Assembly (NCBI GenBank): GCA_029266635.1
Contig: JAQSWM010000013.1
Location: forward strand, 62,001-126,000
Source: Sphingobacteriaceae bacterium
GTDB taxonomy: Bacteria > Bacteroidota > Bacteroidia > Sphingobacteriales > Sphingobacteriaceae
Length of the DNA stretch: 64,000 nucleotides
Direction: 5' to 3'
Part shown: positions 1,026 through 4,951 of the stretch, in pieces
How positions within the stretch are numbered: the stretch's first letter is position 1
How the letters are laid out: the number at the start of each line of letters is the position of its first letter
Made by a program: the position numbers and the translations under genes
Notes under the pieces: model-generated
What the model was told of the DNA's origin: nothing
The model's database searches: none
What the model saw: only the letters and a program-made list of their open reading frames with translations

Positions 1026-1058
1026 AGAGTGAGCCCCTGTGCTCGCTCTTTTTTTTTG
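1026..1058 (+). terminator. Rho-independent terminator of msrB
   Basis: AGAGTGAGC and GCTCGCTCT pair over 9 bp with one G-U, around a 6-base loop, followed by a run of T. It ends the msrB transcript and argues against an rlpA start upstream at 1039, which would lie inside the hairpin. Confidence 0.85.
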
Positions 1059-1131
1059 GACGGTTATTCTTTGCTCTTTCTTCTTTGCTCTTTCAGCTTC
1101 ATCTTTCTCCTTTAAATCGGTATTTTCGTGG

Positions 1132-1494
1132 ATGTTCAAGTTAGCACCCATCACAGCCTTTATTTTGTTTTTTGTCCTGCAATGCTGTGCTCCCAAAATC
1201 TCCCAAACGGGAAAGGCTTCCTTCTACGCAGACAAATTCAATGGGCGTAAAACTGCGAGCGGTGAAACCTTCCGGAACTCAAAGAAGATAGCAGCGCACA
1301 AAACACTTCCGTTTGGCACCAAAGTAAAAGTTACAAACCTTCGGACTGGAAAGTCGGTGAAAGTTCGCATTGCCGACCGCGGGCCATTTGTTGCGGGGCG
1401 AATTATAGACCTCTCTAAAAAAGCCGCCCGAAGGATTGATATGGATAAAGAAGGGGTTGGGAATGTGAAGATTGAATATAGGAAGAAGAAATAA
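1132..1494 (+). CDS. RlpA-like double-psi beta-barrel lipoprotein
   Basis: Short (about 120 aa) septal-ring RlpA-type protein. From the ATG at 1132 it starts [19 protein letters not shown], a lipoprotein signal with a lipobox Cys; the longer frame from 1039 would run through the msrB terminator, so 1132 is preferred. The DPBB domain follows: [35 protein letters not shown], and [18 protein letters not shown], the family's diagnostic order. RlpA proteins bind or cleave denuded peptidoglycan; there is no SPOR domain here, so a binding role is only inferred. The 3' end matters for the neighbouring island: a diverged copy of its last codons occurs again at 5232-5292, consistent with integration at this gene end. 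Confidence 0.88.
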
Positions 1495-1612
1495 CGGTTA
1501 GTGTTTATATTGTGCTCGATTAAGAGCACTTCCGTGTCGAGCTGCACGAATGCTGCTAAAAAGCAGAAAACTTTCGAGAAGCACGTCACCCGGGCATAAT
1601 TTAAACATGTTG
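1495..1612. repeat. Left junction of the island: small inverted repeats and a GGGCATAA/TTATGCCC palindrome
   Basis: This gene-free stretch between rlpA and ariB is packed with short stems: GTGCTC/GAGCAC at 1512-1529 (6-base loop), CTGCT/AGCAG at 1553-1566, and an 8-bp palindrome GGGCATAA...TTATGCCC, which runs from about 1591 into the ariB stop codon (to 1620). The same GGGGCATAAC word recurs just upstream of ariA at 3809-3817. The region probably holds a recombination junction and the 3' end of the ari transcript; no U-rich terminator is seen. Confidence 0.55.
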
Positions 1613-2494
1613 TTATGCCCCGTTTTTTTTAAATTGTTGCTCATAGAAGTCATAGATAGCCCCGTTGTCAAAATGCTTTTCAAAATATTTTTTAATTCCC
1701 ATTCGGTATATAATGTCCCTTGGGATGTTCGATAATGAGTGCCTTTTTTTAATGTAGTGGGTAATTAATTGACAGCTATAATCGGACAAAAAGTGACCGA
1801 AACAAAATTTTAAAGTATCGATTGAATATCTATTTCCAAATAAAGTTGCTTTTCTTTTTGTTATTCCTTTCTCAACTATTTTTTTTTCAATTTCCGCATC
1901 TTTTATACTTGGTAAGTCAATAGGGTTACATTCTACACAAAACATGTAACCTGTTTGTCTTGGAAAGAATGAGGAGTTATATTTAGAGAGGTAAGCATCT
2001 GAATAAACAGCTAGTTTTATTTTTGATACAAACTCTGTCATATTAGCTTCTATATCACTATTGTCAATTTTTATAGCTGTTAACTCTTCAATTACTGATT
2101 TAATCACATTTTGATTCCATACATCGTTTTCCCAACTATAACCATAGGTGTAATACACATTTGGGTGGTTTATCCTTTGATTAAGAATCTCATCAAATTC
2201 ATTATCCATCGCAACCATAACGGTTGTTATTTTCCCGTCAATTATATCTACCGCAATTTCTTTTATTGTAGTTTTTGAACCAACGGATTTGAATTTGATT
2301 TTCTTCCCAGATTTAAACTTAGAAAATATATTTTTCCAAAAGATTATATCTTCAGTCTCTTTTGAATAGTTTCCAGCATAAACCTGGGTTTTATTATATG
2401 AGGTCTTCCCTCCTTCTAAAAAAACAATCAGGTCAACATCATAAAATAGGTGTTGGTTATTTAAACCACTATTTGTTCTCCTAAAGCTACTCAT
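1613..2494 (-). CDS. ariB: DUF4435 / TOPRIM-like effector, AriB of a PARIS-type anti-phage system
   Basis: 293 aa if started at the ATG at 2494, whose ATGA overlaps the ariA stop; a TTG three codons upstream is also open. The N-terminal part resembles DUF4435: DLIVFLEGG with Glu27, then the acidic pair in AMDNEFDEI (D97, D101), the pattern of a TOPRIM-type metal site. In described PARIS systems AriB is held by the AriA ATPase and released by a phage trigger to act as a toxic nuclease (reported to cut tRNA); the essential glutamate lies near residue 26, which agrees with Glu27 here. The C-terminal half (about 170-293) is Lys/Phe rich and unrecognised. Base composition is more AT-rich than the flanking genes. 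Assignment rests on motif, size, order and coupling; a generic DUF4435 protein of another system is the main alternative. Confidence 0.82.
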   Translation of the reverse strand: MSSFRRTNSGLNNQHLFYDVDLIVFLEGGKTSYNKTQVYAGNYSKETEDIIFWKNIFSKFKSGKKIKFKSVGSKTTIKEIAVDIIDGKITTVMVAMDNEFDEILNQRINHPNVYYTYGYSWENDVWNQNVIKSVIEELTAIKIDNSDIEANMTEFVSKIKLAVYSDAYLSKYNSSFFPRQTGYMFCVECNPIDLPSIKDAEIEKKIVEKGITKRKATLFGNRYSIDTLKFCFGHFLSDYSCQLITHYIKKRHSLSNIPRDIIYRMGIKKYFEKHFDNGAIYDFYEQQFKKNGA

Positions 2495-3777
2495 GCAATA
2501 CAAGTCTCCACTTTAATGACGCAATTTGAATAGGAGCCTACTATATCAGGGGAATGAGTAGCAAAGATAATCTGTGAATTTGGATTTACACCCTTTAAGC
2601 TTCCCACTAACTTTTCTTGCCATTCGACATGAAGAGATAGCTCTGGTTCATCTGCAATGTAAACGTGGCTTTTGTTTTCTTGGAGTAGACTTTCTCCTAA
2701 AATAATAAGGAGCTGCTTTTCTCCTGACGAAAGGTTGATTAAATTAAACTCTTTACCACTTTCTGTTCTTACACGTAATTCATTTTTTTCATTAATAAAC
2801 AATTGCTTACGCTGATAAAGCTTATTTAACTCTGCAATAAACGTCAACTTCGGTTTATTTATTAACGTCTTCTTTTCATTTAAATCAATCCACTCTTGAA
2901 CAATTGAATGAATTCTTCTCGTCCCGAGGATGTATGAAAGCTTATCCAGTTGTATAGTCTTTTTATCTTTAAGTAACGTTTTTGCTTCATCGAATCCTTT
3001 AAAATGTTTTTCAAGCTTGCTGCTAAATTCAACTTCTTCAAGTTTAAATAAAAGAAAAATTTGCTTGAGAGATTCCTGTTCCTTTTGAGAGTCTAAATCG
3101 TCAGTTTCTAAAAGATTAATCGGTTTTTCACCCTCAATCAATGAAAGGAAAACATTCTTTTGAAATTTTTCAGTCTCAATAGAATATTGCTTATCAAGTA
3201 CCCCAAAGTATTTAATAAGTTCGGTTGATAATTCTTTAACCTTTTGGTCAATACTTGATTCGAGGCTTTTCTCTTCTTGATGCATATTTCGACTAGCCCT
3301 ATGAATTGATAGCCAAGTCAAATTTACTATGCTTTGTAAAGATAAATTGATATCTCTTCCAATTTGAGCTCCCATCCTATGAATCCTTTGACGTAAGTAA
3401 TCTTTCGGGTATCTATAGTAAATTTCCTCTTCAAGCTCGTTTAACTTGAATGTTTTTGGTTTACTTTCCTTGGGAAGTTTTATAGTAAAAATGATATTTG
3501 GGTATGGAGAATCATTTTTTTCTTTTTTTACCACTTCTATGAAAGCAGAGTCGTTTTTGCTTTCATTATCTGAATGGAAGTCCACTTTAATTCTGTTAAA
3601 TTCAGCCTTGTCCAATGTTGTAAAGTCAGCATTTAAACTGGCTGCTATTAAATTAATTATGGTAGTCTTTCCTGAACCGTTAACCCCTATTAAAAAATTT
3701 ATATTATCGTTAAAGTCAAGAATGACCGTTTTGTCACCCCAAAAGCCTTCAATCCTTACTGATTTTATTTTACGCAT
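2491..3777 (-). CDS. ariA: AAA/ABC-type ATPase, AriA of a PARIS-type anti-phage system
   Basis: 428-aa SMC/RecF-like ATPase. It has Walker A GVNGSGKT at residues 31-38, a long helical middle (about 130-330), the ABC signature LSSGEKQ at 349-355, Walker B VYIADE at 372-377 and the switch His408 in ATHSPD. This architecture is AAA_15/AAA_21, the class of AriA, Septu PtuA and similar defence ATPases. The downstream partner being DUF4435, in a 4-base ATGA overlap, points to PARIS rather than OLD/Gabija or retron-Eco8. In PARIS the ATPase forms a large assembly that senses a phage anti-defence protein and frees AriB. A consensus promoter (3897-3928) and a leader with alternating hairpins (3824-3888) lie upstream. 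AT-rich codon use suggests transfer. Confidence 0.85.
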   Translation of the reverse strand: MRKIKSVRIEGFWGDKTVILDFNDNINFLIGVNGSGKTTIINLIAASLNADFTTLDKAEFNRIKVDFHSDNESKNDSAFIEVVKKEKNDSPYPNIIFTIKLPKESKPKTFKLNELEEEIYYRYPKDYLRQRIHRMGAQIGRDINLSLQSIVNLTWLSIHRASRNMHQEEKSLESSIDQKVKELSTELIKYFGVLDKQYSIETEKFQKNVFLSLIEGEKPINLLETDDLDSQKEQESLKQIFLLFKLEEVEFSSKLEKHFKGFDEAKTLLKDKKTIQLDKLSYILGTRRIHSIVQEWIDLNEKKTLINKPKLTFIAELNKLYQRKQLFINEKNELRVRTESGKEFNLINLSSGEKQLLIILGESLLQENKSHVYIADEPELSLHVEWQEKLVGSLKGVNPNSQIIFATHSPDIVGSYSNCVIKVETCIA

Positions 3778-3807
3778 TTATGATTTTGTTAGGTCGTTTT
3801 TTAAAAT

Positions 3808-3817
3808 GGGGCATAAC
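3808..3817. repeat. GGGGCATAAC word repeated at both ends of the ari gene pair
   Basis: GGGGCATAAC lies about 30 bases upstream of the ariA start. Its inverse, GTTATGCCCC, overlaps the ariB stop at 1612-1621, and a further GGGCATAA is at about 1592. Read on the minus strand, TTATGCCC therefore stands in direct orientation at the start and end of the two-gene block, with an inverted copy just inside the end. Confidence 0.55.
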
Positions 3818-3823
3818 TTGTAT

Positions 3824-3888
3824 ATATGGATGACTTTCTCATCCATATCTCCCCATATAAGGGTAGATATGGATGATTTCTATCATCC
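3824..3888 (-). promoter_or_regulatory. Four alternating complementary segments in the ariA-ariB leader
   Basis: Read on the minus strand the leader contains, in order, GGATGA (3888-3883), TCATCCATATCT (3876-3865), AGATATGGATGA (3850-3839) and TCATCCATAT (3833-3824). Segments 1:2 can pair (6 bp), 3:4 can pair (10 bp, 5-base loop), and 2:3 can pair instead (12 bp perfect, 14-base loop). Mutually exclusive pairings of this kind are the hallmark of attenuator or switch leaders. No U-tract follows 3:4, so simple termination is not supported; translational control, protein binding or a folded-DNA recombination site are alternatives. Confidence 0.6.
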
Positions 3889-3896
3889 TTTTCACT

Positions 3897-3928
3897 CAAA
3901 TATACAATCATATATCAAGGTCATCAAA
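3897..3928 (-). promoter_or_regulatory. Consensus Bacteroidota promoter for ariA-ariB
   Basis: On the minus strand TTTG (3928-3925), exactly 20 bases, then TATATTTG (3904-3897) match the Bacteroidota -33 TTTG and -7 TAnnTTTG elements fully. It overlaps the last codons of the recombinase gene. Transcription would start near 3890, giving a leader of about 110 bases before the ariA ATG at 3777, including the alternating hairpins. Confidence 0.75.
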
Positions 3929-4951
3929 CGGGCTTTTTATGAGTTTTATGCTCTGAGTGCTTACGTGTGTGTAAATCTCCGTTGTTTTACTGCTGCTATG
4001 GCCTAAGAGCTCCTGGATATAGCGCAGGTCAGTGCCTGCTTCTAAAAGGTGTGTCGCGTAGCTATGCCTCAACCAGTGAAGGGTGACAGGTTTATTTATT
4101 TTGGCTTTTGCTAAAGCCTGTTTCAGCACGCTTGCTAAACTCCGTTCGTCATATTGCACATTTGCCGTTTGCCCCTCAAAAAGCCAAACTTTGGGCTTAT
4201 AGGTTTTGTAATACGCCCTTAAAAGTTCTGTTATTTTCCCGGACAAGGGTACTATCCTGTCTTTTCGCCCCTTTGCTTGCCTGATAATCACAACAACGCG
4301 TTCGCTATCTATGTCGGCAAATTTTAAATTTAATAGTTCGCTGCGCCGTAAGCCGCAACTATACATTAAACATAGCATCGCCTGATGTTTCAAATTGCTG
4401 TGAGCATTCAATATCCTTTTAATTTCCTCTTTGCTCAACACGTTTGGCAGAAGGTGCTCCCGTTTGGGCCTATAGATCTTAGCCACCTCTATTGCCGTAT
4501 CCTTAATTATGCTGAAGTATAGTTTAACTGCATTAACAATCTGGTTCTGATACGAAGCTGATAGCCCGTTTGCTATAATGTAATTCTCATAGTAGGCTAC
4601 CACATCGGTATTGTTAAGGCTCTCTAGAGCTTTTGAATTATAGAAAAGCAGAAACGAGCGAAGTGCCTCACAGTATGTTTTCACAGTATTAGGGCTATAT
4701 CTTTTGGTAATCAGATATTGTTCAAATAGCGTTATCTGGGCAACTTTATCAGCAGCTAAAATAACCGGCTGCTGCAGCTTGAACCTTTTTCTATTCAATT
4801 CATTATCCGGCAGGTGCCAGGCATTTAGTGTAGCACTCCATAAAGCGCCATCTAACTTTTTAATTCTGGCAATAAGCGCCGGGTCTTTTTTAAACCATAC
4901 CGCTATTCGTTTTTGTTTTTTGTGAACAATGGCTTCCGCTTTCCAATCCAT
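3908..4951 (-). CDS. Tyrosine recombinase / integrase of the island
   Basis: 347 aa. The catalytic set is complete: Arg202 (GLRRSELL), a Lys in the AKGRKDR hairpin (about 227-230), His292 and Arg295 (HWLRHSYATHLLEAG), His318 (LLGHSSSKTT) and nucleophile Tyr327 (IYTHV). An N-terminal core-binding SAM-like domain occupies about 68-160, and a 60-residue N-terminal extension with WSATLNAWHLPDN precedes it. The catalytic region reads like XerC/D and integron IntI enzymes, but the IntI-specific extra helix before the HxxR box is not visible. It probably moves the adjacent ari genes. Upstream lie a 16-bp palindrome (4985-5000) and an imperfect inverted repeat (5131-5175) that could be its operator and binding sites. 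Confidence 0.93.
   Translation of the reverse strand: MDWKAEAIVHKKQKRIAVWFKKDPALIARIKKLDGALWSATLNAWHLPDNELNRKRFKLQQPVILAADKVAQITLFEQYLITKRYSPNTVKTYCEALRSFLLFYNSKALESLNNTDVVAYYENYIIANGLSASYQNQIVNAVKLYFSIIKDTAIEVAKIYRPKREHLLPNVLSKEEIKRILNAHSNLKHQAMLCLMYSCGLRRSELLNLKFADIDSERVVVIIRQAKGRKDRIVPLSGKITELLRAYYKTYKPKVWLFEGQTANVQYDERSLASVLKQALAKAKINKPVTLHWLRHSYATHLLEAGTDLRYIQELLGHSSSKTTEIYTHVSTQSIKLIKSPFDDLDI

Follow-up and report, generated by a model that had tools for sequence, protein, structure and literature searches.

The question raised by this locus is what four alternating complementary segments are doing between a tyrosine recombinase gene and a pair of putative defense genes, ariA-ariB. The segments lie on the minus strand (3888 to 3824) of the window, by which we mean the whole 64,000-nucleotide stretch of a Sphingobacteriaceae contig that was analyzed. 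A first-pass annotation had placed them in the "leader of the ari genes" and likened them to attenuator-type switches, naming a recombination site as a second option given the adjoining recombinase. We consider it highly probable that positions 3907 to 3815 are the attI-like primary insertion site of a chromosomal integron-like platform, with the ari cassette docked in it. The features of the locus are as follows.

3908 to 4951, minus strand: tyrosine recombinase of 347 aa, with an XerA/IntI-like catalytic domain and an extra N-terminal domain, without the IntI-specific insertion
3815 to 3907, minus strand: attI-like insertion site, spanning the interval between the recombinase stop codon and the crossover G3817^T3816; about 75 loci, breakpoints at GTT
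3882 to 3888, minus strand: segment 1 (box 1), GGATGAT, an inverted copy of the word TCATCC that covaries with boxes 2 to 4 across 61 sites
3865 to 3876, minus strand: segment 2 (box 2), TCATCCATATCT, a direct copy
3839 to 3850, minus strand: segment 3 (box 3), AGATATGGATGA, an inverted copy
3818 to 3833, minus strand: segment 4 (box 4), TCATCCATATATACAA, abutting the crossover
1495 to 3816, minus strand: gene cassette, TTATGCCCC...ariA-ariB...GGGGCATAAC-attC...G, with complementary ends GTTATGCCCC / GGGGCATAAC and a match to the attC model
2491 to 3777, minus strand: ariA-like ABC ATPase (Pfam AAA_15/AAA_21; PADLOC AriA, 1.9e-38)
1613 to 2503, minus strand: ariB-like DUF4435 protein (Pfam DUF4435, 2.2e-9; PADLOC AriB, 6e-9)
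1492 to 1621, minus strand: attC-like site of the ari cassette, crossover G1495^T1494 (model R1, E = 2.5e-15)

The segmented stretch starts directly after the stop codon of the recombinase gene. As RNA, positions 3824 to 3888 fold at −34.9 kcal/mol (z = −7.38), and none of 200 shuffles was equally good; as single-stranded DNA, positions 3808 to 3908 give a z of about −5 on each strand. In the predicted minimum fold, a perfect 12-bp stem of segments 2 and 3 is nested within the pairing of 1 with 4, and the alternative is 1 with 2 plus 3 with 4; the 12-bp stem and its alternative had both been described in the first-pass annotation. An outer arm (TTGTATAT/ATATACAA) extends the inverted repeats back to the recombinase stop codon at 3908. 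Because of these fold scores, and because the inverted repeats reach further than first noted, we confirm that the four complementary segments are real and go beyond chance.

Searches for the recombinase covered 100 related genomes plus a set of named genomes. The same site lies behind it in about 75 Bacteroidota loci, and was seen in 22 loci of the relatives and about 65 of the 80 named loci. It sits 60 to 130 nt past the recombinase stop codon and ends in TATAnACnAG^TTR, which in the window reads ATACAAG^TT. Separately, 31 of 80 contigs (L051 to L130) stop within 1,300 nt past the recombinase stop codon, as if the site or array breaks assemblies. Mutual information across 61 nonredundant sites picks out four short boxes. 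Boxes 2 (−58 to −55) and 3 (−26 to −23) are complementary in 77 to 90% of sites (43 to 50% expected), boxes 3 and 4 (−15 to −12) in 75 to 84%, and boxes 2 and 4 have the same orientation and the same letters. All four window boxes are the 6-bp word TCATCC, alternately inverted; other loci carry GTAGCG, TTCGCC, TCAGAC, or TCATAC, and the word tracks recombinase identity at each of the four boxes (Mantel r, 0.18 to 0.26; P ≤ 0.001). The simplest reading is that the segments represent four alternately oriented copies of the recombinase's recognition sequence, and the attI boxes would then be a directly testable code linking recombinase and site. The first-pass annotation had looked to homologous islands for conservation of the arms; they are conserved and do covary, presumably because they are copies of the recombinase's recognition word, and not as the arms of a switch.

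How much the fold itself contributes can be judged from the same sites. It is possible, though in our estimation unlikely, that the site recombines as folded single-stranded DNA in the manner of attC, with the hairpin (1:4, 2:3) as substrate and hairpin joined to hairpin. The 85 nt before GTT in the 22 sites average −20.7 kcal/mol, compared with −11.7 in 427 control windows (P = 5e-9), and the window's stem extends to the crossover in the single-stranded DNA fold. Full 6-mers are common to pairing partners 2 and 3 in 38 of 61 sites and to 1 and 4 in 22 of 61, these partners being somewhat more similar than most other box pairs. However, boxes 2 and 4, in direct orientation, are nearly as similar as 2 and 3, no covariation is seen in the spacers within the possible stem (z, −0.6 to 1.7), and several sites barely fold: hairpin strength ranges from z = −7.6 to −0.2, so that some sites have a strong fold and others none. 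Hairpin pairing as the sole cause of the covariation is weakened, since same-orientation boxes covary equally and spacers do not, and the variable hairpin strength together with the lack of spacer covariation means that the fold as such need not matter. We regard the hairpin as mainly a by-product of the box arrangement, with a role for the fold still conceivable.

A leader RNA of the attenuator or riboswitch type, in which pairing of 1:2 plus 3:4 versus 2:3 would control ariA-ariB expression, is far harder to sustain. Its topology exists, ariA begins 40 nt past the crossover, and a 36-aa open reading frame (ORF) overlaps the attI-like region, but the element stays with the recombinase. The 51 first ORFs behind the site fall into 49 families and are thus almost always different genes; therefore, the element belongs to the recombinase and not to the ari genes, which leaves the earlier "leader" label a purely positional one. 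A terminator-like hairpin is absent from the leader strand, the sole one being on the plus strand, and no Rfam family attains its gathering score in a search of the segment. The covariation, moreover, joins all four segments, even same-orientation ones that are unable to pair. Given the variety of downstream genes and the lack of a leader-strand terminator, we set the switch aside as very improbable.

The recombination site fares differently, being strongly supported: it is kept with the recombinase, and breakpoints fall at GTT. Loci L082 and L100 are 100% identical up to GTT and 37% identical past it, and L088 and L090 are 99% and 35% identical, respectively; 35 to 37% is chance level, and the downstream sequences are unrelated. 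Two Chryseobacterium plasmids (L152 and L153) break at the same GTT; both carry the platform, and their attI sites are almost alike although their first cassettes differ. Such a break is what an exchange of cassettes at G^TT would leave. One cassette (93 to 99% identical) occupies the insertion site of Flavobacterium denitrificans and lies within Pelobium and Paenimyroides arrays, starting at GTT each time, a 716-bp cassette is 99.7% identical between the unrelated arrays L063 and L102, and L049 is a clean array with cassettes separated by attC sites. Compared in this way, the loci reveal cassette mobility with exact boundaries. L063 (labeled Rhizobium sp. Q54 MAG) and L083 (labeled Ignavibacteria) carry a Bacteroidota-type recombinase and cassettes; the L063 contig is likely misbinned, and possibly L083 too. 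Cassette starts in many genera (L001 to L130; window 3817 to 3795, minus strand) share a loose GTTRnnnGCAATTnTAAAACGAC just before the first ATG, which lies a median of 36 nt from the crossover across loci; candidate roles for this motif are ribosome binding, a promoter, or a second recombinase arm.

The ari cassette itself reads GTTATGCCCC behind the crossover and GGGGCATAAC at the end of ariB, a complementary pair that, by sequence and placement, is the split R′/R″ of an integron cassette. Its attC is a 130-nt imperfect palindrome with a final GTTA at 1492, contains the ariB stop codon, and is the sole match reported by the covariance model in the 64-kb window. An AriA ABC ATPase and an AriB TOPRIM/DUF4435 partner in one operon are the hallmark of PARIS, and we interpret ariA-ariB as a PARIS-like cassette of putative defense genes. 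Of 200 related genomes, only 2 have a relative of ariB; therefore, the cassette looks like a sporadic acquisition, as for exchanged cargo. At the other end, an RlpA-like ORF (window 1039 to 1494) has its stop codon exactly where attC ends on its outer side, so that on the right the platform directly abuts a chromosomal gene.

This attC belongs to a family. Seventeen attC-like sites from many loci share a common 17-pair stem (89.5% paired) in which 16 of 17 pairs have changed on both sides in a compensated manner, and covariation is 0.776 compared with 0.205 when shuffled and at most 0.151 when slid. Among 100 related genomes from the window's own class, 70 contain a match to the covariance model made from these 17 sites (R1); the window's own genome has 8 matches, and the richest genome has at least 33. 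Around the 80 named recombinases the model gives 164 matches; all 164 share the strand of the recombinase, and every one except a single match lies downstream. Where a locus has at least 1.5 kb downstream, an attC was found in 42 of 48 cases, and 6 of 48 had no match to the model. An ordinary single defense-island insertion beside a phage-type integrase, in which the hairpin would have arisen by chance or serve as a terminator, would suit a common recombinase family and the tyrosine recombinases that flank many islands. However, cassettes stand in ordered arrays whose attC sites all lie on one strand, their ends are complementary, and the same cassette occurs with exact boundaries in different genera, which makes this the most remote of the readings.

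The recombinase is integron-like without being a canonical IntI. Its Pfam matches are PF00589 and SAM_4; the IntI model TIGR02249 scores 203.9 bits (cutoff, 265) in a match split into two pieces, and an alignment with Vibrio cholerae IntI (PDB 2a3v) likewise breaks in two around the IntI insertion, of which about 30 to 40 aa are absent. In an alignment with the two canonical IntI of relative G028, both of which have the insertion, no window-type sequence has it, and its absence rules out a canonical IntI identity. Among 100 relatives, a recombinase above the IntI cutoff turned up in just 1, and window-type recombinases form a supported clade separate from IntI and Xer. The G028 IntI genes lie at C1:2095261-2096199 and 2766556-2767482; G028 is the sole relative with canonical IntI that also has window-type attC matches and a subfamily C recombinase. 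The extra N-terminal domain (∼60 residues; predicted strand-strand-helix-strand-strand-helix) gave only weak DUF5710 matches in Pfam (7 of 16 members; best, 5.7e-5) and no convincing match in a PDB sequence search, and the only structures returned by Foldseek were tyrosine recombinases, of the Xer/IntI type and others, whose TM was low owing to the placement of domains; we dropped its assignment to a known fold. In another subfamily (L027, L028, L030, L044, L045, L047, and L050) the attI-like site is upstream and divergent, as in classical integrons, and these loci also have attC matches to the same model on the opposite strand. The window recombinase appears to work like that of an integron yet lacks what defines IntI, an additional domain around patch III (PMC9668308).

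We therefore read 3907 to 3815 as an attI-like site in the following terms. The recombinase encoded just upstream would recognize a 6-bp word present in four copies of alternating orientation (boxes 1 to 4), and because these protein-binding boxes alternate in orientation, they would produce both the hairpin and its complementary segments. The recombinase would link the site, at the G^TT next to box 4, with the attC at the end of a circular cassette, attC probably taking part as a folded single strand, as in integrons. ariA-ariB would be the cassette presently at the site, and attC (1621 to 1492) its exit for excision or exchange. Comparison of loci shows the architecture and its boundaries, the coupling of word and recombinase, and the exchange of cassettes between genera; binding of the boxes by the recombinase and the use of attC in single-stranded form are inferred. 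Counting against the explanation, the recombinase is without the domain deemed necessary for IntI attC recombination, and the 6 loci that have room downstream yet no attC match weigh in the same direction.

The same attC family accompanies known resistance genes. An Empedobacter plasmid carries lnu(H) and tet(X), both terminated by attC sites of the window's family (L159, NZ_CP040909.1; 18164 to 19497 and 8806 to 8937), and the two ends of the tet(X) cassette, GTTATGTGCC / GGCACATAAC, are complementary. On the Acinetobacter plasmid p34AB, a "xerD" gene 68% identical to the recombinases of L039 and L041 is followed by an attI-like hairpin and then by the tet(X) cassette, starting exactly from GTT (L160, 5236 to 5431). 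The same cassette start stands behind unrelated attC ends in Riemerella and Empedobacter, and in the Empedobacter and Bacteroides records listed, the match starts exactly at GTT (query base 62). Judged by sequence, the integron-like system appears to have moved tet(X). It would offer an origin for the arrangement of recombinase and tet(X3) in Acinetobacter, which we take to be the one named the "xerD-tet(X3) unit," with its junction exactly at the GTT crossover. In Riemerella, one report describes how a resistance gene with an attC-like end of 140 bp was gained by homology-free insertion, without settling the mechanism; the present system may offer one (PMC13148043).

Among known systems, the closest parallel is the integron. 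Its attI1 has boxes L, R, DR1, and DR2 and a crossover G^TT beside AAAG/CAAG. Like attI1 of class 1, the site here is a multibox site beside an integrase gene at which cassettes are inserted; attI is recognized by its own integrase, and here we infer such binding (PMC4792948, PMC8946536). Unlike attI, it consists of four alternately inverted copies of one word, giving a long perfect hairpin, and lies downstream of the recombinase gene, both pointing the same way. The attC resembles integron attC in its complementary R″ and R′ split by an insertion, its AAC...GTT ends, and its imperfect palindrome conserved in structure, but has a near-constant length of ∼132 nt and its own recognizable sequence family. 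The recombinase shares with IntI (TIGR02249, PDB 2a3v) the tyrosine recombinase class, similar N- and C-terminal parts, and an SPxD C terminus, whereas the window type has no IntI-specific insertion, an extra N-terminal domain, and a separate clade. An attI beside the integrase gene with a G^TT crossover and a structured attC with complementary R″/R′ are thus present, and the IntI-specific domain around patch III is absent from the window recombinase. As for a Pc promoter reading into the first cassette, a sigma-70-type pattern gave a single match on the minus strand, a yield not above that of shuffled sequence. The "xerD-tet(X3)" unit matches in its recombinase (68% identical to those of L039 and L041), attI-like hairpin, GTT, and tet(X) cassette, but it is carried by IS91-like (ISCR2-type flanking) elements in Acinetobacter plasmids, and its recombinase is N-terminally truncated and of subfamily C. 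In Riemerella anatipestifer, aph(3′)-IVb has a 27-bp 5′ region and a 140-bp attC-like 3′ region and inserts independently of homology; that account names lnu(H), which has an attC of the window's family, as a parallel case, but the section consulted names no recombinase and no attI (PMC13148043). IntegronFinder 2.0 reported one complete integron in Bacteroidota, in Salinibacter (PMC9024848), and by the open literature searched, complete integrons are almost absent from this phylum. In the open-access literature we found no published description of an integron-like gene-capture system of this kind, which is widespread in Bacteroidota and apparently undescribed: 70 of 100 genomes contain attC-like sites, and the recombinase next to them would escape tools built on IntI. 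We see an even chance that this is a parallel Bacteroidota integron class in which folded single-stranded attC is handled without the IntI domain, perhaps via the N-terminal domain, and that it is the native gene-capture system of the phylum and the source of mobile tet(X), lnu(H), and other resistance genes and also stores PARIS-type phage-defense cassettes.
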